Shown piece after piece: positions 9,828 to 24,975 of a stretch of 36,712 nt of DNA. The notes below the pieces were generated by a model, which saw only the letters and a program-made list of their open reading frames with translations, was not told where the DNA came from and searched no databases. The first letter of the stretch is position 1; each line of letters opens with the position of its first letter. Origin of the DNA: Lachnospiraceae bacterium. GTDB taxonomy: Bacteria; Bacillota; Clostridia; Lachnospirales; Lachnospiraceae. Location of the stretch: positions 1 through 36,712 of the forward strand of contig JAGAHC010000041.1 of the NCBI GenBank assembly GCA_017627275.1, given 5' to 3'. A program made the position numbers and the translations under genes.

Positions 9828-12800
9828 TTACTTGCTGTATCTCTTTCTGCTTATCATTGTGAACGAGATTCCAAGAAGTGAAGCTATAAGCATGATGCTC
9901 CAAAGAGCAATACTGTTATTGTCTCCTGTTGCCGGTGCTTTTGTTCCGGTATTAACGACAGGCTGTTTATTTGTGTTACTACCTGTATTTGTATTTCCTC
10001 CGGTATTGGTTCCGCTTGGATCAGTATTTCCGCCAGTGTTACCACCAGATGTACTATTAGCGACGGTTAATTTGGTGCTGACCTTGCCATCATCAAAGTT
10101 TACAGTGACGGTGTGTTCACCAACAGAAAGCTTTTGAAGGGAAGCAGCTTTTAAGGTAACAATCGTGCTTCCTTTTTTCTTATCATAATCGCTATCAGAA
10201 AGTGCCGTACCGTCGATCTCAACACCTGTGAAGTGTTTGATACAATTTTCATCGTCCTCACTACGTTTTACCGTAATGGACAGTGCATTAGTGCTTCCTT
10301 TTGTCCATGTGCTGTTTCCACCAACGGTCACGGTATAGGTGATGGTAGAAGGTGGCGTTACTGGAGCCTTAATACTTACATTATATGTGACAGTCTTACC
10401 TTCATAGGTGATAGTAAGTGTTTGGCTTGCCGCCGGTGCAGATGAATCAAAGCCACTTACCATAGCAGGCGTAACCGCTACTGTTTCATGCGTTCCATCT
10501 GACTTCTCTACATCAAGGGTAAGTCCACTTACATCAAGCGCCTCGCCAACTGTATATTCAGTTTTGCTTGCAGGCGTTTTGATGGATATCTCTGTTACAG
10601 TTATAGGCGTAACAGCTTTATCCTTCCAGATCGCCGTAATGGTGGAATCATCAATGATTTCCACTTGGTCGCCCGGCTCTCCGGCATCCCACTTATCAAA
10701 CTCTTTATCCGCAGAAGGCGGTGTAAAGGTGCATTCAGGAAGCGTCAGTTTTTCTCCTTCCATGACGATCACATCATTCATTGTTCCGCCGCCGCTATTG
10801 GGATTGAAAGAAACCGTATAGGTTGTTGCATCAGCGGCAACGATCATTACTGTATAGCTCTTTGTATCGCTTCCCGCCCCGTTGGTAGCCTTCACGGTAA
10901 AGGTGTATGGGACAGCCATTGTAGGCGTTCCGCTGATCTTTCCGTCTGCGGCGAGGGTCAGCCCTGCGGGGAGACTGCTACCGCTTACAACCTCCCATGT
11001 GATAGGTGTATCGCCCGTAGCTTCAAGGGTCTGATTATATTCTTTTCCCACCTTGCCGTCCGACAGAGTGGTGGTTGTGATAGTGGGCTTAACAGGCGTT
11101 ACCGTTCCCTCTTTTTGGAAATATACATCAACCGCGACATCGAAGTCTTTCATTATAAATTCATTTGTTGATGTAATATCCGTGTCCGTTCCGCCGTTTC
11201 CCCATTTAATAGCTTGCAGCGTGTATCCGCTGTTTGGCGTTGCGGTGACGGTTACTTTTTCTCCCGTTGCGGCAATATTTTTGCTTGCAGAAGCCGTTCC
11301 GCCCGTTTCGGAAAGAAGGGTCACGCCGTCTGTATCGTATGTCATAATGTTTACATGAACGTTATAACTTTCTTGCGCCGCCACCGTAAACTCTTTTTCA
11401 ACATCGATGACGCCCATACCAAGATTTATGCTGACTCCATCGGTGCTGTCGTTTACATAGGCTGTCATTGCGGAAGTATTGAACGGTATCGTCGATGTGA
11501 CATTTCTGACATAAATCTTAACCTTATATGTTTTGCCCGGCACAAATTTGTCCGTTGCAGAAAGTTTGATATTTGTTTCCGTGTCTGTCCAAACTGTATC
11601 GCTGATCACATATTGGTCTGTTGCCGCCGATACCGCGTCTGAAGGATTGACACCCGCCTTTGGCTCGGCAACGTTGATATAGACCGTGTCTATTGTTGGA
11701 CCGCTGTATGTGTAATTCGCCCTTACAAGCACATCCTGCGTTCCCATTTTGAAGCTGGTTGCTGCGTTGTTTGCATTTTCAAGGGTGACGCCTCCGGAAA
11801 CGACCGTCCAATCCTTAAAGGTATAATTCTCTCTTGTGCTTGCGGTGATATTCACCGTTTGCTGCGGTGGCGCGGCGCTTCTGTCTGCCGTGCCGCCATT
11901 GACGGTTATGGTGTGATATTTCGCAGACCAACGCGCATACACCGTGGTGTTGCCGGTAAACACCGTATCTGTCGTTATTTTGCTGCCGCCGTTTGGCTGC
12001 GTAAACCAGCCCATAAAGCTGTAGCCGTCACGGGTTGCTGTCGGCAGGCTTGTCAGCTTGCCATCTGTGCCTGTTGTAGCGTTTGTTGCCGAAGCACTTC
12101 CGCCGCTAGCGTTGAAGGTGATGGTATAAGTAACATTCACAGTAAACTCATCACTATCTACATATTCTGCGGCTCCGGTGCCGTACCATGCACGGTATTT
12201 ATAAACGCCCGCCTCGGAAATGTTTTCCGATGTGATTGTAGGATTATCGAGGATTTTATCCGTTGCATCGTCTTTGAATCTATGAATACTGACAGGTGTG
12301 AAGTTCGTCGCCCATGTAACGGTATGCTGCCCGCCGTTCGTAATGGTTCCACCCTGCGGTTGAGTAGTGAACACATACGAAAACACATAATCATATTCTC
12401 CCCACCATTTTGATGACAGTTGTACACCACCATACCCTGGATGTTTGTCTAACGCATGAAGTCCAATCGTATATTGTCCGCTCGGTGCATTAACTTCATC
12501 TAACATATGTTTTATATTGACAGATGTCCCTTCTACAAGTCCGCCACCACTGTTTGCACCAAATTGGTAACTCCAACTATACAATGTAGCTCCAGGGAAA
12601 GCATCCCAAGTCAAAATGCCTTCTGAGGATATAGATACATTTTGGAGAGATGATAAGTCTTTGGTTCTTGTAACCCACCCACTGGTTGCATATTCACTAT
12701 CAATATAGTTTTCGCTGGTTGCATAAACAACAAATGCGTACTGGTGTGTATCTGCAACAAAATAATCCGAAAAATCAATGCTATTTGATGTAGTTTCAAA

Positions 12801-13295
12801 ATTAATCGGATCAGCAGTATTGCCAAAAGAATCAACCCATAACCTACCTCTATATTTAGTTGCATTTGGTACAGAGTCCCACGACCCAACATTTCCGACC
12901 CATTTTAGATTTGTCGGAGTAGAAAGTTGAGGTATAGTGGAGGTATAGCTATATGGTTTCTGCCATATAGATGATATTCGAGTACCGCCATCCTCTGGTT
13001 TCTTATCCATCGCATAAAGCTTAACAGTATATGTTCCACTGCCACCTTTATTGCTATCTAGTATGCCCTTTATATTGAAAGTAGTTTCCTCCGTAGTGCC
13101 TTCATATGTTCCGACGCTCCAAAAATAGCATCCCGCACCAGAGAAGGCATCCCATGTCAAAACGCCTTCTGCGGAGAGCTGGACATTCTGCAAGGGCGGT
13201 TCACCATCCGCATACGCCACCTGCCCCGGTAGTAATCCCGCCATCATCACGAGAGCAAGAAGAATGCTCAACAGTCTTGTAATTTTGTGTTTCAC
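9828..13295 (-). CDS. Large cell-wall-anchored multidomain surface protein
   Basis: A 1155-residue secreted protein with a GTG start. Residues 1-30 are a signal peptide ending near AYADG. The N-terminal part (about 35-310) has two related modules opened by LQNVQLSAEGVLTWDAF and LQNVSISSEGILTWDAF. Then come a Listeria-Bacteroides (Flg_new) repeat with GYSFMGWFTQPNGGS at about 390-457, InlB-like divergent repeats, a putative Ig (He_PIG) domain with SLPAGLTLAADGKISGTP at about 735-815, another GW-type repeat at about 825-890, a bacterial Ig-like (Big_3) domain with YTVGEALDVSGL at about 898-975, and a Gly/Thr/Asn linker. It ends in the sorting signal APATGD, a 20-residue hydrophobic span and RKRYSK, so sortase anchoring is likely with Ala in place of the usual Leu. 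It is cargo of the integrative element; adhesion is a plausible role, the ligand is unknown. Confidence 0.85.
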   Translation of the reverse strand: MKHKITRLLSILLALVMMAGLLPGQVAYADGEPPLQNVQLSAEGVLTWDAFSGAGCYFWSVGTYEGTTEETTFNIKGILDSNKGGSGTYTVKLYAMDKKPEDGGTRISSIWQKPYSYTSTIPQLSTPTNLKWVGNVGSWDSVPNATKYRGRLWVDSFGNTADPINFETTSNSIDFSDYFVADTHQYAFVVYATSENYIDSEYATSGWVTRTKDLSSLQNVSISSEGILTWDAFPGATLYSWSYQFGANSGGGLVEGTSVNIKHMLDEVNAPSGQYTIGLHALDKHPGYGGVQLSSKWWGEYDYVFSYVFTTQPQGGTITNGGQHTVTWATNFTPVSIHRFKDDATDKILDNPTITSENISEAGVYKYRAWYGTGAAEYVDSDEFTVNVTYTITFNASGGSASATNATTGTDGKLTSLPTATRDGYSFMGWFTQPNGGSKITTDTVFTGNTTVYARWSAKYHTITVNGGTADRSAAPPQQTVNITASTRENYTFKDWTVVSGGVTLENANNAATSFKMGTQDVLVRANYTYSGPTIDTVYINVAEPKAGVNPSDAVSAATDQYVISDTVWTDTETNIKLSATDKFVPGKTYKVKIYVRNVTSTIPFNTSAMTAYVNDSTDGVSINLGMGVIDVEKEFTVAAQESYNVHVNIMTYDTDGVTLLSETGGTASASKNIAATGEKVTVTATPNSGYTLQAIKWGNGGTDTDITSTNEFIMKDFDVAVDVYFQKEGTVTPVKPTITTTTLSDGKVGKEYNQTLEATGDTPITWEVVSGSSLPAGLTLAADGKISGTPTMAVPYTFTVKATNGAGSDTKSYTVMIVAADATTYTVSFNPNSGGGTMNDVIVMEGEKLTLPECTFTPPSADKEFDKWDAGEPGDQVEIIDDSTITAIWKDKAVTPITVTEISIKTPASKTEYTVGEALDVSGLTLDVEKSDGTHETVAVTPAMVSGFDSSAPAASQTLTITYEGKTVTYNVSIKAPVTPPSTITYTVTVGGNSTWTKGSTNALSITVKRSEDDENCIKHFTGVEIDGTALSDSDYDKKKGSTIVTLKAASLQKLSVGEHTVTVNFDDGKVSTKLTVANSTSGGNTGGNTDPSGTNTGGNTNTGSNTNKQPVVNTGTKAPATGDNNSIALWSIMLIASLLGISFTMISRKRYSK

Positions 13296-13536: not shown

Positions 13537-14538
13537 TTATCTCAAAACTAGCGGCGGGTTAGAAAGCATCCTTGCTACAGTATTCTTGTAATCCGCCACA
13601 TCCTTAATTTCTGTGATTGTCGTGACGCTGCGCCCTGCATCCTTGCTGCTGGCACCACAATGATAGACCTTTATGGAATCCGTTCCATAATCCAGGATGA
13701 TATATCGATCGTGGATTTTATCCAGCGATTTTATGAAAGTAATATCTCTGCCGGGATATTCCTTTTCAAAATCATCATATTCTGCTTTTCGAAAAGGATT
13801 CCTGCCTTTGTTATCGCTGACGATAGTTATCTTTATGTTTTTCTTTGCTGCAGCAAGATGATGAAGCGTCTTTATGCCAATATAATCATCTATGACAATT
13901 ATGCTTTTCTTGGCCTTCTTATAGATTTTTTGATATGCCATGTCCGCCCTGAAGGGTTGTCCGTTGAGGATGAGGATCTCTTCAGCGTCTTTACTGGCAT
14001 CAAACAGCTTCATGAAATCAGAGAGGTCTGCTTTGGTGACCATTGTTTTCTTAATATCTCGAATGTCTAACTCTATGCTATTTTGTCTATTGGATAGCAA
14101 ATAAAGCTCCTGATATGGCAGCAATTGTCTGTTCTGTTGTAAATAATGACGCATCTCTACAAATGCTTCCATTATTTGTATACTCGCATCAATTGCTCTA
14201 TCTGTATGCAAGCAACTTGTGAGCATTGCCACACCCTGTTCAGAATAGACATAAGGTTTATATGATCTTCCACCTTTAATTCCGACAGTTTGCATCGAGA
14301 TGCCAGATTGGCATCTCGATATTTCGTCATCTGTAAGCTGAAAGCAAAAAGAATCTGGAAATCGCTTAATATTACGCTTCATAGCCCTGTTAAGTGCGCC
14401 TGTCTCAACACCAAAATAAACAGCAATATCGCTATCAAGCATAACTCTAATGCCTCTAATTTCATATATTTGTGCTTTGACCTTTTCCTTGTCAATAGGC
14501 TCAAATATCGCTATCTCAGTTTTGTCATCATTCGCCAT
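13537..14538 (-). CDS. ORF6N-domain protein with C-terminal PLD-like domain
   Basis: A 333-residue protein. Residues about 20-105 form an ORF6N (KilA-N-like) domain, seen in IRGIRVMLDSDIAVYFGVET and KRFPDSFCFQLTDDE, usually DNA-binding and common in phage antirepressors and mobile elements. The C-terminal part (about 205-320) looks like a phospholipase-D-fold domain: FRADMAYQKIYKKAKKSI, a core IIVIDDYIG, then HDRYIILD and GASSKDAG. Only one catalytic-type histidine motif is seen, with HDR in place of HKD. The start at 14538 (MANDDKTE) is preferred because GAGG lies at the right distance and a TATAAT directly abuts the upstream ATG at 14577. It lies between the recombinase and the surface-protein gene. 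Regulation or defence of the element is plausible but unproven. Confidence 0.75.
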   Translation of the reverse strand: MANDDKTEIAIFEPIDKEKVKAQIYEIRGIRVMLDSDIAVYFGVETGALNRAMKRNIKRFPDSFCFQLTDDEISRCQSGISMQTVGIKGGRSYKPYVYSEQGVAMLTSCLHTDRAIDASIQIMEAFVEMRHYLQQNRQLLPYQELYLLSNRQNSIELDIRDIKKTMVTKADLSDFMKLFDASKDAEEILILNGQPFRADMAYQKIYKKAKKSIIVIDDYIGIKTLHHLAAAKKNIKITIVSDNKGRNPFRKAEYDDFEKEYPGRDITFIKSLDKIHDRYIILDYGTDSIKVYHCGASSKDAGRSVTTITEIKDVADYKNTVARMLSNPPLVLR

Positions 14539-14577
14539 TATCTGTACCTCATTTCTCGGTGAAAATCTTGTATTCAT

Positions 14578-14606
14578 ATTATACCGTAAGCGTTAAGCCC
14601 TATAAA
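14578..14606 (-). promoter_or_regulatory. Promoter candidate for the ORF6N gene
   Basis: On the minus strand TTTATA (14601-14606) and a perfect TATAAT (14578-14583) are 17 bp apart, with initiation expected about 30 bp before the start at 14538. It overlaps the end of the recombinase gene. This promoter makes the longer N-terminus unlikely. Confidence 0.5.
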
Positions 14607-16480
14607 CCACTTTTTATTACTGCATCTGCCTTTTTAGGCTCAACAGAGGGAATATCTGCTACTGGGATGAATACGCCTTTCTTGATATCCTCCTGCTTTA
14701 TCTCATCTTTAGCTTTGTCCATCTCAGCCTTCTTCTTGGCTTTGATCTTGGCTTCATACTGTGCCTGCCATCCTGATTCTTTCCTTCTGAGATAAGCTCT
14801 ACGCTGCTTTTCTCTTTTCTTTTCGGCAAGTAATAATTGCGCCTTTTCTTCCTCGGTTAGTTCCTTCTCAAAGTCCGGCGGTAAAAATCTGCCAACAAAA
14901 TTGAAGTAGATTTCAATCTCCTGTGTGCAGTTGATGCTGCCTTTTACATCACGTTCATGGACAAGCACTTTATCAACCAATTCTAAAAGCATAGGATTAG
15001 TAAGTTCATCAAAGTTCTCGTATTTTTGAATGAGTGCGATAAACTTCTCGGCAGAATTATTTTCAATACCTGCTTCTGCTATTTCCTTTTCCAGTTCAGC
15101 GGTTTGCTTTGTAAGACTCTGCTTCTCATTTTCATAGGCTTGTGACAGCGTAAGATAACGATCTTCCGGAAGCTTTCCAAGGATATTATCTTCATAAATG
15201 CGACATATTAATTTTTCCAGCTCCTCAAGGCGATTATTATTTGCCGTAACGACTCCCTTAGCCTTTGATATATCCACATTACTTTGAGATTTATGGGTTT
15301 CCTTTATTGTCTTGATAAAAGCTTCCTTATCAAGCTTTGAATACTCGGCAATAGCTTTAAGAAGGTCTTTGATAAGAATAAGGACATTTTCCTCTTTTAC
15401 TCTATGCTGCGTAGGGCATTTTGTGCCAACCGGAACTTTACTATAGGCTGAGCAGGTATATTGCGGAATACGTTTTCCGTTACTTGTTCTATGAACATAC
15501 ATCTTTGCTCCGCAGTCCGCACAATACATAAGCCCTGTAAGAGGATGAAGCTCGCCCCAACCATCCGGATATCTTCTTACGCTTTTTCTAATCTTCTGGA
15601 CAAGCTCAAAAGTTTCCTCGTCAATAATGGGTTCTTGCGTATTTTCAAAGATTACCCAATTATCCTCAGAAACATAATGGCTCTTTTTATCCTTGAAATG
15701 CTTTTGTGTCTTGAAGTTTACTGTGTGACCTAGATACTCTTGTTTAGATAAGATGGAGACAATGGTACTTGATCCCCAATTATATGGATCCTTAAATGTT
15801 TTATTCTTATTTAGACCTTGGCCGTATCTTGCCATATGAACGGCAGGGATTTCAACTTTATCTTCTCTTAGGATTCCGGCTATCTGATATGGCCCATTCC
15901 CTTCTATTGTGAGCCTAAATATTCTTCTGACTACTTCCGCAGCTTCTTCATCCACAATCCATTTATTGCCGTCTTTTTCATCTTTTAGATAACCATAAGG
16001 ACAATTTGAAGCCACATGCTTACCGGAGAGTCCTTTAGCTTTGAAAACTGACTTTATCTTCTTACTGGTATCCCTTGCATACCACTCATTCATGATATTT
16101 CTAAAAGGGGTAAAATCATCTTCACCTGTAAAGGTATCGACATTATCGTTGATGGCGATAAGGCGAACATTCTTCTTGCGAAGATATTCCATGAATTCAC
16201 CAACTTGAAGATAATCACGTCCGACACGACTCATGTCTTTTACAAGGATAATACCGACATTATCATTTGATACTTCATCCATCAAGGACATAAAGCCCGG
16301 CCTATCGAAACGTGTTCCACTTATTCCATCGTCTGTGAAATGTGTAGGGGATGGGAAGCCATGATCCTTGGCATAGGCAAGTAACTGCCTCTTTTGATTT
16401 ACAATCGAATTTGATTCACCTTGAAGTTCATCGTCTCTGGATAGGCGCTCATAAAGAGCGGTTATTTTGACTTTGTTCAT
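14600..16480 (-). CDS. tnpX: Large serine recombinase, TnpX/TndX-like
   Basis: A 626-residue large serine recombinase that should cut and rejoin the element ends without a transposase of the DDE type. The resolvase catalytic domain has the nucleophile Ser14 in YERLSRDDE, the arginine-bearing DGISGTRFDRPGF and MSRVGRDYLQVG. The recombinase domain (about 165-290) and a zinc ribbon with CADCGAKM and a later CSAY..C pair follow, then a long coiled coil (about 395-500) and a C-terminal DUF4368-like part. GGAGATTATTCTT precedes the ATG. It lies at the right end of the element, reading inwards, as in Tn4451 relatives. All catalytic parts seem intact, so the element may still be mobile. Confidence 0.92.
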   Translation of the reverse strand: MNKVKITALYERLSRDDELQGESNSIVNQKRQLLAYAKDHGFPSPTHFTDDGISGTRFDRPGFMSLMDEVSNDNVGIILVKDMSRVGRDYLQVGEFMEYLRKKNVRLIAINDNVDTFTGEDDFTPFRNIMNEWYARDTSKKIKSVFKAKGLSGKHVASNCPYGYLKDEKDGNKWIVDEEAAEVVRRIFRLTIEGNGPYQIAGILREDKVEIPAVHMARYGQGLNKNKTFKDPYNWGSSTIVSILSKQEYLGHTVNFKTQKHFKDKKSHYVSEDNWVIFENTQEPIIDEETFELVQKIRKSVRRYPDGWGELHPLTGLMYCADCGAKMYVHRTSNGKRIPQYTCSAYSKVPVGTKCPTQHRVKEENVLILIKDLLKAIAEYSKLDKEAFIKTIKETHKSQSNVDISKAKGVVTANNNRLEELEKLICRIYEDNILGKLPEDRYLTLSQAYENEKQSLTKQTAELEKEIAEAGIENNSAEKFIALIQKYENFDELTNPMLLELVDKVLVHERDVKGSINCTQEIEIYFNFVGRFLPPDFEKELTEEEKAQLLLAEKKREKQRRAYLRRKESGWQAQYEAKIKAKKKAEMDKAKDEIKQEDIKKGVFIPVADIPSVEPKKADAVIKSGL

Positions 16481-17859: not shown

Positions 17860-18690
17860 ATGAATAATCAAGAACTGCGGCATTACGCAAATGAAATTCG
17901 TAAATCGGCAGTCACTGCCGTGTACACCGCACATTCGGGCCATCCCGGCGGGAGCCTTTCCTGCGTGGACATCCTGACGTATCTGTATTTTGAGGAAATG
18001 CACATCGATCCCAAGAATCCGGCCGATCCCGACCGCGACCGTTTTGTCCTTTCCAAGGGACATGTGACACCCGCGCTGTACGGTACCATGGCACACAGAG
18101 GGTATTTCCCGCTCGAAGAGTTAAAAACCTTCCGTCAGCTCGGAACACGCCTCCACGGCCATCCTTCGATGCGCTATCTTCCGGGCCTTGATATGAGCAC
18201 CGGCTCTCTCGGACAGGGCATGGCGACCGCGGTCGGCATGGCGCTGGCCGGCAAGGTGCAGAAGAAAGACTACCGTGTTTATACCGTCATCGGCGACGGC
18301 GAAAGCCAGGAAGGCGAGATCTGGGAAGCCGCCATGTTTGCCGCTGCCAAAAAGCTGGATAACCTCACGGTAATCCTGGATTACAACGGTCTGCAGATCG
18401 ACGGCACCATCGCCGAAGTCAACGATCCGCAGCCCTTCGACAAGAAGTTTGAAGCCTTCGGCTTCCATGTGGTCGTAGCCGACGGTCATGATTTTGATTC
18501 GCTGCGCGCAGCGTTTGAAGAGGCACGCAAGACCAAGGGACAGCCGACGGTCATCCTGGCAAAGACCGTCAAGGGAAAAGGCGTTTCGTTCATGGAAAAT
18601 CAGGCCGGCTGGCACGGAAAATCACCGAACGAAGAACAGTACCGGCAGGCAATGGAGGAATTGGAAAGGGCAGGTGAAGCAAATGAGTGA
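17860..18690 (+). CDS. Transketolase, N-terminal (TPP-binding) subunit
   Basis: A 276-residue protein equal to the first half of a normal transketolase. It carries the substrate and pyrophosphate histidines in AHSGHPGGSLS and KGHVTPALYG, the segment GSLGQGMATAVGMALAG, and the TPP/metal motif GDGESQEGEIWEAAMFA..NLTVILDYN. Together with the next gene it should form an active heterotetramer that moves two-carbon units between sugar phosphates in the non-oxidative pentose phosphate pathway. Split transketolases are common in Clostridia and archaea. Its last codons overlap the start of the second subunit by 8 bp, so equal production through coupling is likely. Confidence 0.93.
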   Translation: MNNQELRHYANEIRKSAVTAVYTAHSGHPGGSLSCVDILTYLYFEEMHIDPKNPADPDRDRFVLSKGHVTPALYGTMAHRGYFPLEELKTFRQLGTRLHGHPSMRYLPGLDMSTGSLGQGMATAVGMALAGKVQKKDYRVYTVIGDGESQEGEIWEAAMFAAAKKLDNLTVILDYNGLQIDGTIAEVNDPQPFDKKFEAFGFHVVVADGHDFDSLRAAFEEARKTKGQPTVILAKTVKGKGVSFMENQAGWHGKSPNEEQYRQAMEELERAGEANE

Positions 18691-19621
18691 AATGAAGAAG
18701 ATCCCAACCAGAGACAGCTACGGCGCCGCGCTGGCGGAAGCCGCAAAGGACTATCCCAACCTGATCGTTATGGATGCTGACCTTTCCTGTGCGACCAAGA
18801 CGGAAGAGTTTGCAAAGGTGTGCCCCGAGCGTTTCTTTAACGCCGGCATTGCGGAAGCCAATATGGTATGCGTTGCCGCCGGTCTTGCCGCCGCGGGCAT
18901 GATCCCCTTTGTCAGCAGCTTTGCCATGTTTACCGCCGGACGCGCTTTTGAACAGATCCGCAACTCCGTCGCCTATCCGAAACTGAACGTGAAGATCGGC
19001 GCCACCCATGCCGGCATCAGCGTCGGCGAAGACGGCGCTTCCCATCAGTGCATCGAAGACATCGCGCTGATGCGCGTTCTCCCGAACATGACCGTCTTGA
19101 GCCCCAGCGATGACATCGAAGCAAGAGCCTGCGTCAAGGCGGCGCTTGACCTTGACGGCCCGGTCTATCTGCGTCTCGGACGCGCTGCCGTTCCTGTCAT
19201 CAACGGCGCCGACTATCATTTTGAGATCGGAAAGGGACAGCTCCTCAAGGAAGGAAAAGACGTGACGATCGTTGCCACGGGCCTTCTTGTCAGCATCTGC
19301 CTCGAAGCCGCGGAACTTCTGAAGAATGAAGGGATCGATGCGGAGGTCATCAACATCTGCTCCATCAAGCCCCTGGACGAAGAGCTGATCCTTGCCTCTG
19401 CCGCAAAGACCGGCAGGGTCGTCACCGCCGAGGAACACCTCATTGCCGGCGGACTGGGCGGCGCTGTGGCGGAAGTTCTTTCTGCAAAGCTTCCCACGAA
19501 GCTGACCCGCATCGGCATGGAAGACCGCTTCGGGGAGTCCGCTCCCGCAGAAGCGCTGTTGGAGAAATTCGGCTTTACACCTGCTGCCGTTTGCGCACGC
19601 GTCAAGGAAGCCTGCCGCTAA
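18683..19621 (+). CDS. Transketolase, C-terminal (pyrimidine-binding) subunit
   Basis: A 312-residue second half of transketolase. It holds the pyrimidine domain with the activating glutamate in FNAGIAEANMVCVAAGLA, the aromatic ring site in FVSSFAMFTAGRAFEQIRN, the HAGISVGEDGASHQ segment and the C-terminal transketolase fold. The start at 18683 (MSEMKKIPTRD) is used because AGGTGAAG precedes it and it overlaps the upstream stop by 8 bp; a longer in-frame reading would only antisense-like extend through the first subunit. Ribokinase follows after 21 bp. Confidence 0.93.
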   Translation: MSEMKKIPTRDSYGAALAEAAKDYPNLIVMDADLSCATKTEEFAKVCPERFFNAGIAEANMVCVAAGLAAAGMIPFVSSFAMFTAGRAFEQIRNSVAYPKLNVKIGATHAGISVGEDGASHQCIEDIALMRVLPNMTVLSPSDDIEARACVKAALDLDGPVYLRLGRAAVPVINGADYHFEIGKGQLLKEGKDVTIVATGLLVSICLEAAELLKNEGIDAEVINICSIKPLDEELILASAAKTGRVVTAEEHLIAGGLGGAVAEVLSAKLPTKLTRIGMEDRFGESAPAEALLEKFGFTPAAVCARVKEACR

Positions 19622-19642
19622 AAGCGCGCAAAGGAAAGCACT

Positions 19643-20638
19643 ATGAAAAAAGCGCCTAAGATCCTGATCGTCGGCAGCCTCGTGATGGATACCATCATGA
19701 GCACGGAAGTATTTCCGGAACCCGGCGCCACGGTGCTCGGCGACACGTTTCGCACGGCACCGGGCGGGAAGGGCGCCAATCAGGCGGTCCAGACCGCGCG
19801 TCTTGGTGCCGACGTCACCATGGTCGGCAAACTCGGAGACGATGCCTTCGGCAGCGTTCTTCGAAACGCGCTGATCAGTGACGGCATCCATACGGAGCAC
19901 CTGATGGAGAAAAAGGGCGCATCCAGCGCCGCGGCTTCCATCATTCTGACCACCAAGGACGGCGTTGCCTTAAACAACCGCATCATCGTCGCTTCCGGAA
20001 CCAACATGATGATCACGCCGGAAGACGTCGCATTCTTAAAGGAAGAGATCGCGCAGTATGACATGGTCATCCTTCAGCTGGAGATCCCAATGCAGATCAA
20101 TGAGATCGTCGCCGCCTACGCCTTTGACAAAGGCGTCCCGGTCATGCTGAATCCGGCACCCATCGCACCGCTCTCCGATGAACTGCTGTCGCACATCACC
20201 TACCTTTCCCCCAATGAGACAGAAGCCGCATCGCTTCTTGGCATGGTCGTCCGCAGAGAAGGCGAAGGCATTCCGCACGACAAGGTTCCGCGGATCCGCG
20301 AAGTCATGCAGAAAAGAGGTATCCGCAATCTCCTGCTGACGCTCGGCGATGCCGGCGCCATGATGATCACGCAGGACGATGTTATTCTCGAGGAAAGCGT
20401 GAAGGGCATCCACGCGGTCGATCCCACGGCCGCCGGCGACAGCTTTGTCGGCGCCTTCTGCACCGGCAAATGCCTTGGCATGAGCGATGCGGAAGCCATC
20501 CGCCTTGCCAACATCATCGGCGCCATCACCGTTTCGGGCATGGGCGCACAGCCCTCCCTTGCGACGTTCGACAAGGTACGGGCCTTCGTGAAGGAGCACG
20601 GCATCGACGATGCGATCCTTCGCTACTTCGAGGACTGA
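19643..20638 (+). CDS. rbsK: Ribokinase (PfkB family sugar kinase)
   Basis: A 331-residue PfkB-type kinase. The N-terminal sugar-binding signature APGGKGANQAVQTARLG and the C-terminal DPTAAGDSFVGAFCTG, with the catalytic aspartate and the anion hole, are both present. Phosphorylation of ribose to ribose-5-phosphate fits its position as the third gene after the split transketolase, since ribose-5-phosphate is a transketolase substrate. No ribose transporter or rbs regulator is in the window. The protein is about 20 residues longer than E. coli RbsK at the C-terminus. Another PfkB sugar specificity, such as deoxyribokinase, cannot be excluded and would suit the nearby deoC. Confidence 0.88.
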   Translation: MKKAPKILIVGSLVMDTIMSTEVFPEPGATVLGDTFRTAPGGKGANQAVQTARLGADVTMVGKLGDDAFGSVLRNALISDGIHTEHLMEKKGASSAAASIILTTKDGVALNNRIIVASGTNMMITPEDVAFLKEEIAQYDMVILQLEIPMQINEIVAAYAFDKGVPVMLNPAPIAPLSDELLSHITYLSPNETEAASLLGMVVRREGEGIPHDKVPRIREVMQKRGIRNLLLTLGDAGAMMITQDDVILEESVKGIHAVDPTAAGDSFVGAFCTGKCLGMSDAEAIRLANIIGAITVSGMGAQPSLATFDKVRAFVKEHGIDDAILRYFED

Positions 20639-20759: not shown

Positions 20760-22244
20760 TCAGCTCTTTATGATGTAAGCATCGACGATCTCTCCGTAAA
20801 TCGCATAATGCGGATCCTTATTGGCACCGGTATTCTTGCTGTCAACATCCTGCGGGTAAAGCTTTCCGGGAATGCTCTCGTCTTCAAACAATGACAGATC
20901 CTGCTTCTGCATGTACAGCACCTTGCACTCCAGGGTGAGCGGCACTTCCTTGATGGCGGGAACGGAGATCACCTCCGGATCAATGAGCGTCAGTTCCGCC
21001 TCCTTAATCTTATCGATGTCTCTGCCGCTCTGTCTGCCGCAGATCTCCAGCATCGTCGGCGTCAGCTTCTCCATCGGCACACTGACGGTGAATTCCTTAT
21101 TCTTCTGCAGCAGGCTGATCGTATGTCTGTTTTCGCGCACATACGTCACAAACACCTTTTTATTCCAGTTGATCCCGACCGTACCCCAGCCGATGACCAT
21201 GGTGTTGATCTCGTCTTCCGCCTTGGTCGTCAGGAGCGCACCGCCCGTCAATTTCCGCATGATGTGGCCGGCGTAGTCTTCGACCTGGATGTCCTTCTTC
21301 TGGATGCGTCCCGTTCCTTCTTCAGCATTCTCTTTCGAGAGTCCGGCCAGTTTGAACGCCATCCATTCCGAAGCGTATTCCGTGGTGGAGATGTGTTTTT
21401 CCCTGGCTTCCGCGTAGGAGCGGTTGAAGGGAAGCAGGACGTTCCGGATCATGTATTTCCGGCACTCCTCGGACTCCCAGAGATGGTATTTGTCGTACAT
21501 GTAATTGTAGTCGTCGTACGCGCGATAGTCTCTGGAGACCCGCGGCACTTCTTCTACCTTGTTGTCCAGTCTCTTTTCGCGGACCGCAAAGGAGACGAGC
21601 GGTTCCTTCGTAAAGACGAACTCGGGATGCGCACGCAGGATGTCAAAGTAGAGGAACATGTCAGAAGCAAACCGGCTCTTGACGTCAAAGATGTAGGCAG
21701 GCTCCGACGCACGGTAGATGGTTGCGCCTAAAGACCCGATCTCATTGCCGAGAAACAGATGCCGATAATCCTTCTGCAGCGCTTCTATGAATTCATCGCT
21801 CGCAGCGCGGTCCGTGGCCGTCTCGTCTTCCGCCCCTTCTCCCTGCCGCACGACCTCTCTCGTGCCGGAAAAGGCAAAGGCCGCCTGCGGGTTCTCGGTC
21901 AGAAGCGCCACGAATTTGCTCAGCGAATCGGTATTGGTAAAGTAATCGTCACCGGTCATGATCTTGACAAACTGCGCGTTGTCGCTTTTCATGCGGACTG
22001 CCGCGTTACGGTTCGGAACAAGGCCCGACTTTTCCGTATTGTGGACATAGTTCACGTCGATGTCGGAATTGCCGATCAGCCATTCGACCTCATCGCTGTC
22101 CGAATCGTCCGAGATGTTGATCTCGATGTTCGGGTAGTCCTGCTGCTCGATCGAATGCAGAAGTCTCTCGATCCCCGTTACATTGTTGAACGCAGGAATA
22201 CAGATCGATACCAGCGGCATTTCTTTCATTTGTTCGTTTGCCAT
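20760..22244 (-). CDS. GT2 glycosyltransferase fused to a flavin-reductase-like (FMN split-barrel) domain
   Basis: A 494-residue protein with two unrelated parts. Residues about 8-300 are a family 2 glycosyltransferase: PLVSICIPAFNN, the nucleotide-binding NISDDSDSDE and the metal motif TGDD at 97-100. This half is a close paralogue of the next gene upstream, sharing RHLFLGNEIGS, FASDMFLYFDIL and LWESEECRKYMI. Residues about 317-494 are a flavoredoxin/flavin-reductase domain: GALLTTKAEDEINTMVIGWG, VFVTYVRENRHT, VSVPAIKEVPLTLECKVLY, YPQDVD and YAIYGEIV. The junction (about 21308) coincides with where free-standing flavin reductases start, with no stop or start codon between. No known pathway needs this pair, so the fusion may result from a gene-joining deletion or have a real redox-sugar role. 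A cytoplasmic location is likely; no membrane spans are seen. Confidence 0.88.
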   Translation of the reverse strand: MANEQMKEMPLVSICIPAFNNVTGIERLLHSIEQQDYPNIEINISDDSDSDEVEWLIGNSDIDVNYVHNTEKSGLVPNRNAAVRMKSDNAQFVKIMTGDDYFTNTDSLSKFVALLTENPQAAFAFSGTREVVRQGEGAEDETATDRAASDEFIEALQKDYRHLFLGNEIGSLGATIYRASEPAYIFDVKSRFASDMFLYFDILRAHPEFVFTKEPLVSFAVREKRLDNKVEEVPRVSRDYRAYDDYNYMYDKYHLWESEECRKYMIRNVLLPFNRSYAEAREKHISTTEYASEWMAFKLAGLSKENAEEGTGRIQKKDIQVEDYAGHIMRKLTGGALLTTKAEDEINTMVIGWGTVGINWNKKVFVTYVRENRHTISLLQKNKEFTVSVPMEKLTPTMLEICGRQSGRDIDKIKEAELTLIDPEVISVPAIKEVPLTLECKVLYMQKQDLSLFEDESIPGKLYPQDVDSKNTGANKDPHYAIYGEIVDAYIIKS

Positions 22245-22262: not shown

Positions 22263-23195
22263 TTATGATTTTTGTAATCTGCTTTTCATAAAGGATAGTA
22301 ATGTGTTTATTCTATCATGAATCCACCCGCAAATGTATTCCCCGCGGAAGATGTGATTCTCTCTCGCCTCCGCATAACCTTTGCGGTACGGGAGGATCCG
22401 TTCCCTGATCATGTAGTCTTTGCATTCCTCAGATTCCCACAGCCGGTACTTCTGATAGAGATACCGATAGTCCTCGTAAATGCGTTCGTCCATCTCCGTA
22501 AAGGTCTGCGTGTACTGGCTCTCATGGAGGCCGATCGACACGAGGGGCTCTCTCGTCCACGCAAAGGCCGGGTGGTCCTGCAGGATGTCAAAGTAGAGGA
22601 ACATGTCGGAGGCAAATCCGCTCTTTTCGTCGAACAGATACGGCGGTTCCGTATTCCTGTACAGGACGGCGCTGGGCGCGCCGATCTGGTTGCCGAGGAA
22701 CAGATGGCGGTGGTCCCTCCGGAGTCCTTCGATGAACGCATCCTCTGCCCACCGGACGGTATAGGCGTAGTCTCCGTCTTCCGTTTTCTCATACAGCTTC
22801 ACCTGCCGGGAGCCGGAAAACGCAAGATGGGCCTCAGGGTTTTCCTCCAGCAGGGAAACGAACTTCGCAAGGCTCTCTTCTTCTGTCAGGAAGTCGTCGC
22901 TGAAAAAGATCTTGATATAGTCTGCTGCCGGATCCCGCATTTGAATCGCGGCATTCCAGTTCAGGATGAATCCCTTCTTCGTCGCATTGCGGACGTAGCG
23001 GATCTTCGATCGGAGATGCTCCGGCATCGTCCGGATCAGTTCCTCGATCCGTGTATCATCGGAGTCGTCGCTGATGTTGATCTCGATATTCTGACAGGTC
23101 TGCTTTTCAATTGAAAGAAGGAGGCGTCGCACGTCCTCCGGATTGTTATAGACAGGGATGCAGATGGATACCAGGGGTTCCTTTACGCTTGCCAT
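22263..23195 (-). CDS. Family 2 glycosyltransferase
   Basis: A 310-residue GT-A-fold glycosyltransferase that transfers a sugar from a nucleotide donor. It has PLVSICIPVYNN, INISDDSDD and the metal motif FFSDDFL at about 98-104. It is the paralogue of the fused protein next to it and aligns with it end to end up to about residue 290, then ends in a short helix with SFMKSRLQKS instead of the flavin-reductase domain. It starts 5 bp after the GT17 gene stop and 18 bp separate it from the fusion gene, so all are cotranscribed. The acceptor is not readable; a cell-surface polysaccharide or glycoprotein is most likely. Confidence 0.9.
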   Translation of the reverse strand: MASVKEPLVSICIPVYNNPEDVRRLLLSIEKQTCQNIEINISDDSDDTRIEELIRTMPEHLRSKIRYVRNATKKGFILNWNAAIQMRDPAADYIKIFFSDDFLTEEESLAKFVSLLEENPEAHLAFSGSRQVKLYEKTEDGDYAYTVRWAEDAFIEGLRRDHRHLFLGNQIGAPSAVLYRNTEPPYLFDEKSGFASDMFLYFDILQDHPAFAWTREPLVSIGLHESQYTQTFTEMDERIYEDYRYLYQKYRLWESEECKDYMIRERILPYRKGYAEARENHIFRGEYICGWIHDRINTLLSFMKSRLQKS

Positions 23196-23200
23196 CAGGC

Positions 23201-24160
23201 TCAGTTCCCCTTCCGTAAGATCTTTCTTGCCAGACGTTTGAACGGCAGGAGCATTTCCTCCACCCGGTCTCTTCTTCTCTGCTTCTGCTGCCGTTTCTGT
23301 CTGTCTTCTTCGCTCTCTTCCTGCAGGATCAGGTGTGCGAGTTCTTCCCGGTGCGTACGGATATACAGGGGATAAGTCTCATCGATCTCCCTGCGGACAA
23401 ATCTTGCATCGCGCCCGAAGATGTCCTGCCCGTCGAGGAGCCTCTCCTCCACCCGGTCAAGCGTGCGGCGGTTGTTGTATTCCTGGTGGGCGGCCGAGAT
23501 GACCTTCTCCCGAACCCGCTTTTTGATGTCCGTTTCTCCGTGCCCGCCCATGTATCCGAAGTGCCATCCGCCGTTGTCCACGCGGATGCCGTATTCTTTC
23601 TTGTCGGGAAACCGGAGCTCTCCGAGCTGCCATCCCTTTTCTCTTAACAGCTGATACGAAAGCATCTTCGAACCGATCCATTTTTTCGGGTCGGCATCCT
23701 CAAAGTCGCCCGCATAGGACAGGAGCTTGCCGGACACCTCTTCCATGTTGAGGTAACAGTAAAAGAGACGCTGCGCGAAGTGGTAGACCTTGTCCTTTTC
23801 CACCCCTGCGTCCAGGATCTTTTGGATCTCCTCGGGGTTCGGGATCTCGTCCAGATCGCTGAAAATGATGATGTCATCGTCCGTGCAGTTTTGCAGGCCC
23901 CTGGTGACGGCATTCTTCTGGAACGTATCCCGCTCGTGCGTGCCGCCCTCGGGCGTATCGGTCACGGTCACATGGATGATCTTGTCCGCAAACTCGGAGA
24001 ACATCTCCTTGTTTTCCTCATAGTAATAGGGCTTTGGCAGGCCGGAGAACGTTTCGTTCGCCTCGCTGATGACAAAGTAATCCACGATCGGATCCATAAT
24101 GTGCATCCGGATCTTCAGCATATCCAGTTCATTGAAAAACTGAAAGCAATCGTAAATCAT
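23201..24160 (-). CDS. Family 17 glycosyltransferase
   Basis: A 319-residue member of GT17 (beta-1,4-N-acetylglucosaminyltransferase family). Hallmarks are MIYDCFQFFNELDMLKIR at the N-terminus, FVISEANETFSG, the GxxH-like ERDTFQKNAVTRGL, the DxD segment IIFSDLDEIPNP, and WHFGYMGG near residue 190. A basic, glutamine/arginine-rich tail of about 45 residues could bind membrane or partner proteins. The start at 24160 is chosen because it overlaps the upstream stop as ATGA; the longer in-frame extension lies entirely inside the DUF5672 gene. In bacteria the family builds surface glycans of unknown structure. Confidence 0.9.
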   Translation of the reverse strand: MIYDCFQFFNELDMLKIRMHIMDPIVDYFVISEANETFSGLPKPYYYEENKEMFSEFADKIIHVTVTDTPEGGTHERDTFQKNAVTRGLQNCTDDDIIIFSDLDEIPNPEEIQKILDAGVEKDKVYHFAQRLFYCYLNMEEVSGKLLSYAGDFEDADPKKWIGSKMLSYQLLREKGWQLGELRFPDKKEYGIRVDNGGWHFGYMGGHGETDIKKRVREKVISAAHQEYNNRRTLDRVEERLLDGQDIFGRDARFVRREIDETYPLYIRTHREELAHLILQEESEEDRQKRQQKQRRRDRVEEMLLPFKRLARKILRKGN

Positions 24161-24894
24161 GACAGCCTGTCCCTGATCCTCTGAAAGAGGCTTCGTTTTT
24201 TCGGTGCCGGCAGGAAGTTGGGGTAGTCCGCATTGGTCCCGTTCCATTTGTGGAAGCAGAACGGCGTGATCCCTTCGATCTCGGGGATCATGGTCTCATG
24301 GCCGAAGTATTTCGCGACTTCGAGCGGCGCGATCCTCATTCCTTCCGCTTCCAGGAGATGTCTGATCTTGCAGCAGAGGAACCCGTCCTCGTGATACCAC
24401 ATTTTGCCGTAGGCATACTCCCCTTCCCAGGGCACGTTTGCCTTTTTCGGAAAGTCCATCAGGCGCTTGGAGCGGATCCCGACGCTGTTACCCACGCGGC
24501 AGATGTTGCCGTCCTTATCCCGGTAGGTCGTCGTATCCCCTTCCGGCGGCAGCGGCCACGGCGCGCCGATGTAATCGTAAGCAAGGAATTCGTCCCGCCA
24601 CATTTCCGGGTGGACGATGAACCCGTCCGCATGGACGATCATTGCGAAGTCTGTCCGGATGTGGTCGCCCAGCTCATAGACCATCTTATAATTGAAGTCG
24701 TCGATGTTCTTCAGCTCTTCTGTGTGCGCATAACGAATAAACCCGGGAAGCTCCCCCGGTTTTTCATGCGTGATCAGCACCGCGTCACCGAAATCGATCC
24801 CCCGGCAGCTGTATTCCATCGCCTGTATGGTTTCCTTCACATTGACGCTCGTCATGGCGACCAGCGTCACCTGCGGCAGCTGCAGTTTCTCCAT
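24157..24894 (-). CDS. DUF5672 family protein (glycosyltransferase-like)
   Basis: A 245-residue protein of the DUF5672 family, which has a glycosyltransferase-like fold and occurs in surface-glycan clusters. Visible family segments are QVTLVAMTSVNVKETIQAM at the N-terminus, MIVHADGFIVHPEMWRDEF with the HxDG metal-like motif, YDYIGAPWPL, VGNSVGIRSKRLM and WYHEDGFLCCKIR. The start at 24894 is preferred over an ATG at 24951, because AGGAG precedes it and the upstream ATG lies in a terminator hairpin. It is the first gene of the four-gene glycosyltransferase operon. The exact reaction is unknown. Confidence 0.85.
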   Translation of the reverse strand: MEKLQLPQVTLVAMTSVNVKETIQAMEYSCRGIDFGDAVLITHEKPGELPGFIRYAHTEELKNIDDFNYKMVYELGDHIRTDFAMIVHADGFIVHPEMWRDEFLAYDYIGAPWPLPPEGDTTTYRDKDGNICRVGNSVGIRSKRLMDFPKKANVPWEGEYAYGKMWYHEDGFLCCKIRHLLEAEGMRIAPLEVAKYFGHETMIPEIEGITPFCFHKWNGTNADYPNFLPAPKKRSLFQRIRDRLS

Positions 24895-24941
24895 CTGTCG
24901 TTTCTCCTGAATTGCCTTCTTATTATCGCACATAATAAAGA

Positions 24942-24975
24942 AAGGAACCACTCTCCTCAGGGAGAGTGGTTCCTT
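24942..24975 (-). terminator. Perfect-palindrome terminator after the HPr-like gene
   Basis: GGAACCACTCTCC (24944-24956) and GGAGAGTGGTTCC (24961-24973) form a perfect 13-bp stem, extended by AA/TT, with loop TCAG. On the minus strand it is followed by TTTCTTTATT and lies 21 bp after the HPr-like stop. A closely similar element is at 32371-32400. Confidence 0.75.

Follow-up and report, generated by a model that had tools for sequence, protein, structure and literature searches.

A gene at positions 20760-22244 on the minus strand of the analysed window, a Lachnospiraceae stretch of 36,712 nucleotides, joins a GT2 glycosyltransferase to a flavoredoxin-like flavin reductase in a single frame of 494 amino acids. 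We consider it most probably to be a young, lineage-specific gene fusion whose reductase is well preserved and whose glycosyltransferase half has changed or become redundant, and we would put the probability of this reading at about 0.55. Both enzyme families are known; their pairing is a new combination, seen once. The source genome is a draft of 1.74 Mb in 116 contigs (98.8% complete, probably metagenome-assembled), of which the window is contig C32. Since the fusion is known from this one genome, the join rests on one consensus.

One frame, two domains and the junction between them

The frame comprises 494 codons, starts with ATG and contains zero internal stops. Glycos_transf_2 (PF00535) covers residues 13-126 of the encoded protein (E 8e-15; 55.6 bits against a cut-off of 23.3), and Flavin_Reduct (PF01613) covers residues 333-444 (E 2.2e-11; 44.6 bits against a cut-off of 27). 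Both matches pass the curated Pfam cut-offs, and the two domains that an initial annotation had read in a single frame are thus borne out. The predicted product is one polypeptide of approximately 56 kDa.

The halves meet within residues 291-314 (21303-21374, minus strand), a stretch containing the end of glycosyltransferase homology, Met295, an AAGGA motif and the ATC codon 314 (21305-21303). The match to an unfused paralogue encoded directly upstream extends to residue 299 of the fusion and leaves 14 further residues of the paralogue; a protein of that length would therefore end at about residue 313, where the reductase begins. Stand-alone reductases, in turn, align from residue 314/315 through the end of the fused protein. 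Such a layout supports the junction of the initial annotation, which had placed the start of the reductase at about 317, as well as its statement that a paralogue ends where the fusion begins: this paralogue exists, and its end would fall where described. In our reductase alignment (A2), 28 of 34 stand-alone proteins start one column after I314 (at Q315), five start at I314 and one starts a column earlier, each start being set at whichever ATG lay closest to the anticipated position.

At codon 314 the fused gene reads ATC; in this column, the most similar stand-alone protein (locus L006) has its ATG. The AAGGA motif, which resembles a ribosome-binding site, ends nine bases before this codon; as about 4.9% of codons in the ORFs of this genome have a 5-nt match of this kind upstream by chance, the motif is suggestive only. 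The only in-frame ATG codons nearby are those of Met295, upstream, and Met329, already inside the domain. In another frame, a TGA can be seen by eye 16 bases before codon 314. Judged from these letters, the junction is consistent with two formerly adjacent genes, the first of which lost its stop and the second its start.

The join might also be an error of assembly or consensus, or a frameshift confined to one strain, with the two genes remaining separate in the living population. We regard this as unlikely, although far from negligible: the fusion appears in a single draft genome, and the out-of-frame stop lies at a distance from codon 314 that is ordinary for the stop-to-start spacing of operons. 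Composition is also somewhat uneven on the larger scale. The tetranucleotide distance of the whole window (0.127) lies inside the range of 11 other stretches of the genome (0.076-0.165), and the first two of its three 12-kb pieces lie above that range (0.192 and 0.183), the fused gene being in the second; the GC content of the window (0.514) is below that of all 11 stretches. A contig foreign to this genome might give such values as well; the relatives of the glycosyltransferase module described below belong to the same genus and family. Against a single indel stands the absence of a reductase ATG: after an error of this kind alone, the reductase would still have a start codon. GC content and codon usage, moreover, remain similar across the join. 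The GC content is 0.537 in the glycosyltransferase half and 0.529 in the reductase half, with third-position values of 0.72 and 0.75, while codon usage is ordinary for the genome throughout (percentiles of 77 for the glycosyltransferase, 44 for the linker and 86 for the reductase, with reference pieces drawn from 77, 113 and 108 ORFs, respectively). Finally, a random misjoin would rarely fall within the approximately 25 codons that separate two full-length domains.

Unequal histories of the two halves

The glycosyltransferase half (residues 1-290; 21375-22244, minus strand) is a divergent tandem copy, and the unfused paralogue next to it (310 aa; 22263-23195, minus strand) is a member of a conserved positional module. 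From 36 matches, we retained 19 after leaving out those of the window itself and those longer than 360 aa; these relatives have lengths of 284-349 aa and share 33-44% identity with the fused half. The alignment and tree were built on 17 of them plus the two window copies. In this tree of 19 rows, the fused half and the paralogue were sisters (support 99/97), the end branch of the fused half (1.10) being 2.8 times longer than that of the paralogue (0.39). By this topology, the glycosyltransferase half stems from a tandem duplication of 22263-23195 within this lineage, and the order given in the initial annotation, with the fusion following the duplication, is upheld.

The two copies also differ in what they have kept. 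In a leave-one-out comparison, each row was judged by the columns that the remaining rows conserve to at least 94%. The fused half deviates at 8 of 43 such columns and the paralogue at 1 of 43; a single row, that of locus L074, deviates at more (11 of 49). The changed positions of the fused half are Y19, W79, Y92, P172, S173, G220, Q225 and T227. D46, D47, D99, D100 and D195 are invariant across all 19 rows, the fused half included. Going by GT2 enzymes such as SpsA, we take the conserved aspartates to be the nucleotide-sugar and metal site, and the later one to be the base. The GT2 part fell below the cut-off of every NCBIfam model among those listed.

The reductase half (residues 315-494; 20760-21302, minus strand) gives a different picture. 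It keeps 37 of the 37 columns conserved in 34 stand-alone relatives; the separate reductase genes found in the genomes searched encode 157-181 aa. The closest of the stand-alone proteins comes from the same genus (genome G029) and is 61% identical. Of 54 matches, 51 were listed; A2 took 34, and a quick tree took 48 plus the window. In this tree, the reductase half groups among stand-alone proteins of the genus and family (support of 81 for the set of 15 rows), falls in no starred set, and has an end branch of 0.53 against a tree median of 0.21. Its family profile matches the flavoredoxins 3bnk (E 1.8e-13) and 2d5m (E 3.8e-13), and it meets the Pfam cut-off of the flavoredoxin/flavin reductase family (PF01613; PDB 3bnk, 2d5m and 2r6v), from whose members it differs in having no start codon of its own and in sitting behind a glycosyltransferase. 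Two other Flavin_Reduct proteins of the genome (contigs C4 and C15) do not match the fused protein at E <= 0.001, which leaves the reductase half as the one member of its subfamily detected in this genome. Keeping in mind its intact conserved positions, we believe that it is probably a working FMN-binding reductase.

Such an imbalance might also mean that the reductase is additionally, or mainly, made as a protein of 200 aa from the in-frame Met295, the glycosyltransferase half being a duplicate in decay that is transcribed as a leader. Met295 precedes codon 314 by 19 codons, and conserved residues are lost in the glycosyltransferase half and not in the reductase half, as this scenario would have it. 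Nevertheless, we consider it rather improbable: by eye, no good ribosome-binding site precedes Met295, the stand-alone relatives of A2 (with the nearest ATG taken as their start) have no such N-terminal extension, and the glycosyltransferase half is still a complete frame with its invariant aspartates.

Distribution of the fusion and its genomic surroundings

With the whole protein as query and every candidate stretch scored, the 61 other genomes of the genus yielded no fused gene. Nor did one appear elsewhere in samples of 392 genomes at the level of the order, 397 of the family, 391 of the class and 398 of the phylum, sets that overlap and include the source genome. Here, the best three to four candidates per genome were scored and those at E <= 1e-30 or 1e-25 listed, so that this search would overlook a fusion whose halves are more divergent. 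In the loci examined, the relatives carry the halves as separate genes. Four of 150 loci longer than 3 kb match both halves, and all four are the window itself; among the loci compared, no other one shows this reductase beside this GT2. In an established two-domain enzyme, the pair of domains would be expected to recur across species, and the sets searched yielded it in this genome only. The initial annotation had tied its case to the recurrence of the fusion in another genome; that search has now been run and found none in these sets, and the observation of two domains in one frame stands in itself.

A scan of named genome contigs returned two loci, one of which (L036) begins at a contig edge inside the reductase and gives no answer on the fusion for this reason. 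Three long frames were considered as further candidates. That of L058 was rejected, as a flavodoxin-like gene precedes the reductase with stops between them, and that of L061 was rejected because it amounts to 193 aa; the extension in L057 was judged by eye, the usual ATG giving 178 aa. Viral contigs contained no relative, and none of 11 matches in plasmid records reached a coverage of 80%. No fusion of a glycosyltransferase and a flavin reductase was found among the open-access literature matches listed; where the two terms occur in the portion of PMC3423927 concerned, they name separate genes.

The surroundings of the stand-alone reductases were followed in ten loci (L110-L119). None of them matches the glycosyltransferase genes of the window at 1e-6. 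Pfam scans of 40 of their approximately 113 frames gave 34 with a match and no glycosyltransferase family, and no neighbour gene was common to the loci among the frames scanned. In one locus (L116, 5708-8300, genome G002), the reductase closely follows the genes for UbiD and a UbiX-like flavoprotein, which possibly hints, from a single locus, at the reductase family as a supplier of reduced FMN.

These data bear on the idea that the protein is a coupled two-domain enzyme, with the flavin domain acting as a redox sensor or reducing a cofactor or acceptor that the glycosyltransferase uses. By their sequences, both domains seem able to fold, with the catalytic aspartates and the conserved reductase positions present, and the changes in the glycosyltransferase half, falling at specific conserved clusters, could represent a new acceptor site instead of decay. 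Still, we find the idea very doubtful, since no second genome with the fusion turned up in the searched sets, glycosyltransferases are missing from the 40 frames scanned at the reductase loci, and the literature matches listed hold no precedent. For the same reasons, and because the glycosyltransferase half is the part that is losing conserved residues, the redox-gated glycosyltransferase or flavin-linked acceptor suggested in the initial annotation finds no support. More doubtful still is a specific version, in which a reductase dimer would hold two glycosyltransferases and either gate them by the redox state of FMN or reduce a flavin- or quinone-like acceptor that is glycosylated at a remodelled site (172-173 and 220-227).

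The other side of the fused gene leads into a row of genes that lie close together, all on the minus strand: the fused gene, the paralogue, a GT17-like glycosyltransferase adjoining the latter (23201-24247, taken from the first start codon of the frame, with matches in several relatives beginning at residue 24-29) and a DUF5672 protein (24157-24951). The trio DUF5672-GT17-GT2 (22263-24951 in the window) recurs in related polysaccharide clusters with its order mostly kept. It is complete in L102, L104 and L106-L109, with an 806-aa gene in between in the case of L106, while GT17-GT2 is seen in L103 and L105. These module relatives come from the same genus and family and are 61-81% (DUF5672) and 61-74% (GT17) identical to the window. 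At the eight loci, the single GT2 shares 38-44% identity with the fused half and 43-53% with the paralogue. The fused half shares its aspartate pattern with these GT2 proteins and differs from them in having an extra C-terminal domain, 8 of 43 conserved positions changed and a second copy in tandem. PDB relatives of the GT2 part include chondroitin synthase 2z87 and SpsA 1h7l. Ten neighbours scanned in L102 and L106 comprised two ABC transporters, GT11-like, CotH kinase, DUF3431 and Bac_transf proteins, and four without a match; the source genome has four Bac_transf genes elsewhere.

Relatives of the GT17-like gene occur in 27 of 62 genomes of the genus. Among the six closest modules (63-74% identity), the next gene is one close, unfused GT2 in five (G012, G016, G028, G068 and G074), which further supports a fusion that followed the duplication. 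In the sixth (G064), the next gene shows no similarity to the window proteins compared, and in G068 a distant glycosyltransferase (27%) follows the close GT2. Of the modules at 48-56%, the comparison took in L148.

Several other genes of the window deserve a comment. On the minus strand, an ORF6N-domain protein lies beside a large serine recombinase with Resolvase, Recombinase, Zn_ribbon_recom and DUF4368 domains (13537-16480), probably as part of a mobile element. Convergent to the fused gene (17860-20638, plus strand), two frames that by eye represent a transketolase in two parts precede a PfkB sugar kinase identified with Pfam; of the 61 other genomes of the genus, only one contains a relative of this kinase at E <= 1e-60. 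A repeat surface protein of 1155 aa with InlB-type B repeats and Big_3 (9828-13295, minus strand) closes with a PATGD-like motif, a run of hydrophobic residues and a basic tail, resembling a sortase signal by eye.

A scenario for the origin of the fused gene

Taken together, the sister relation, the branch lengths, the uneven residue loss and the missing start make the young gene fusion our preferred scenario. Counting against it are its occurrence in a single draft genome, the chance frequency of the AAGGA match, the small share of stand-alone reductases (5 of 34) that start in the ATC column, the long end branch of the reductase half and the greater number of departures in L074. In an initial step, a DUF5672-GT17-GT2 polysaccharide module would have undergone a tandem duplication of its GT2 gene in this lineage. 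The second copy would then have lost its stop, so as to read in frame through an apparent former ribosome-binding site and into a flavoredoxin-family reductase gene that no longer has a start codon of its own. The product would be one polypeptide with two separately folding parts. Reductases of the flavoredoxin family are usually homodimers, and such a dimer would pull two glycosyltransferase domains together. The order of these events, as well as FMN binding, dimerisation and what selection keeps, is what we infer from these observations.

The glycosyltransferase half retains its catalytic aspartates, and its acceptor use has probably been altered or weakened, given the changes at conserved positions around 172-173 and 220-227; the original job would be done by the upstream paralogue. 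Coupling between the halves is not needed to explain the data. The recent gene-fusing event that the initial annotation had offered as its other option fits better than a coupled function, even though in no other locus compared does this reductase stand beside this glycosyltransferase, which makes the unfused neighbour state of the two genes a presumed one.

A functional glycosyltransferase coupled to redox state would be new to biochemistry, but these data do not lead in that direction. If the fusion is real and the protein is made, it would be a young example of unrelated enzymes joining, in which one half stems from a fresh tandem duplicate, the halves evolve unevenly, and the old ribosome site is perhaps still readable in the linker.
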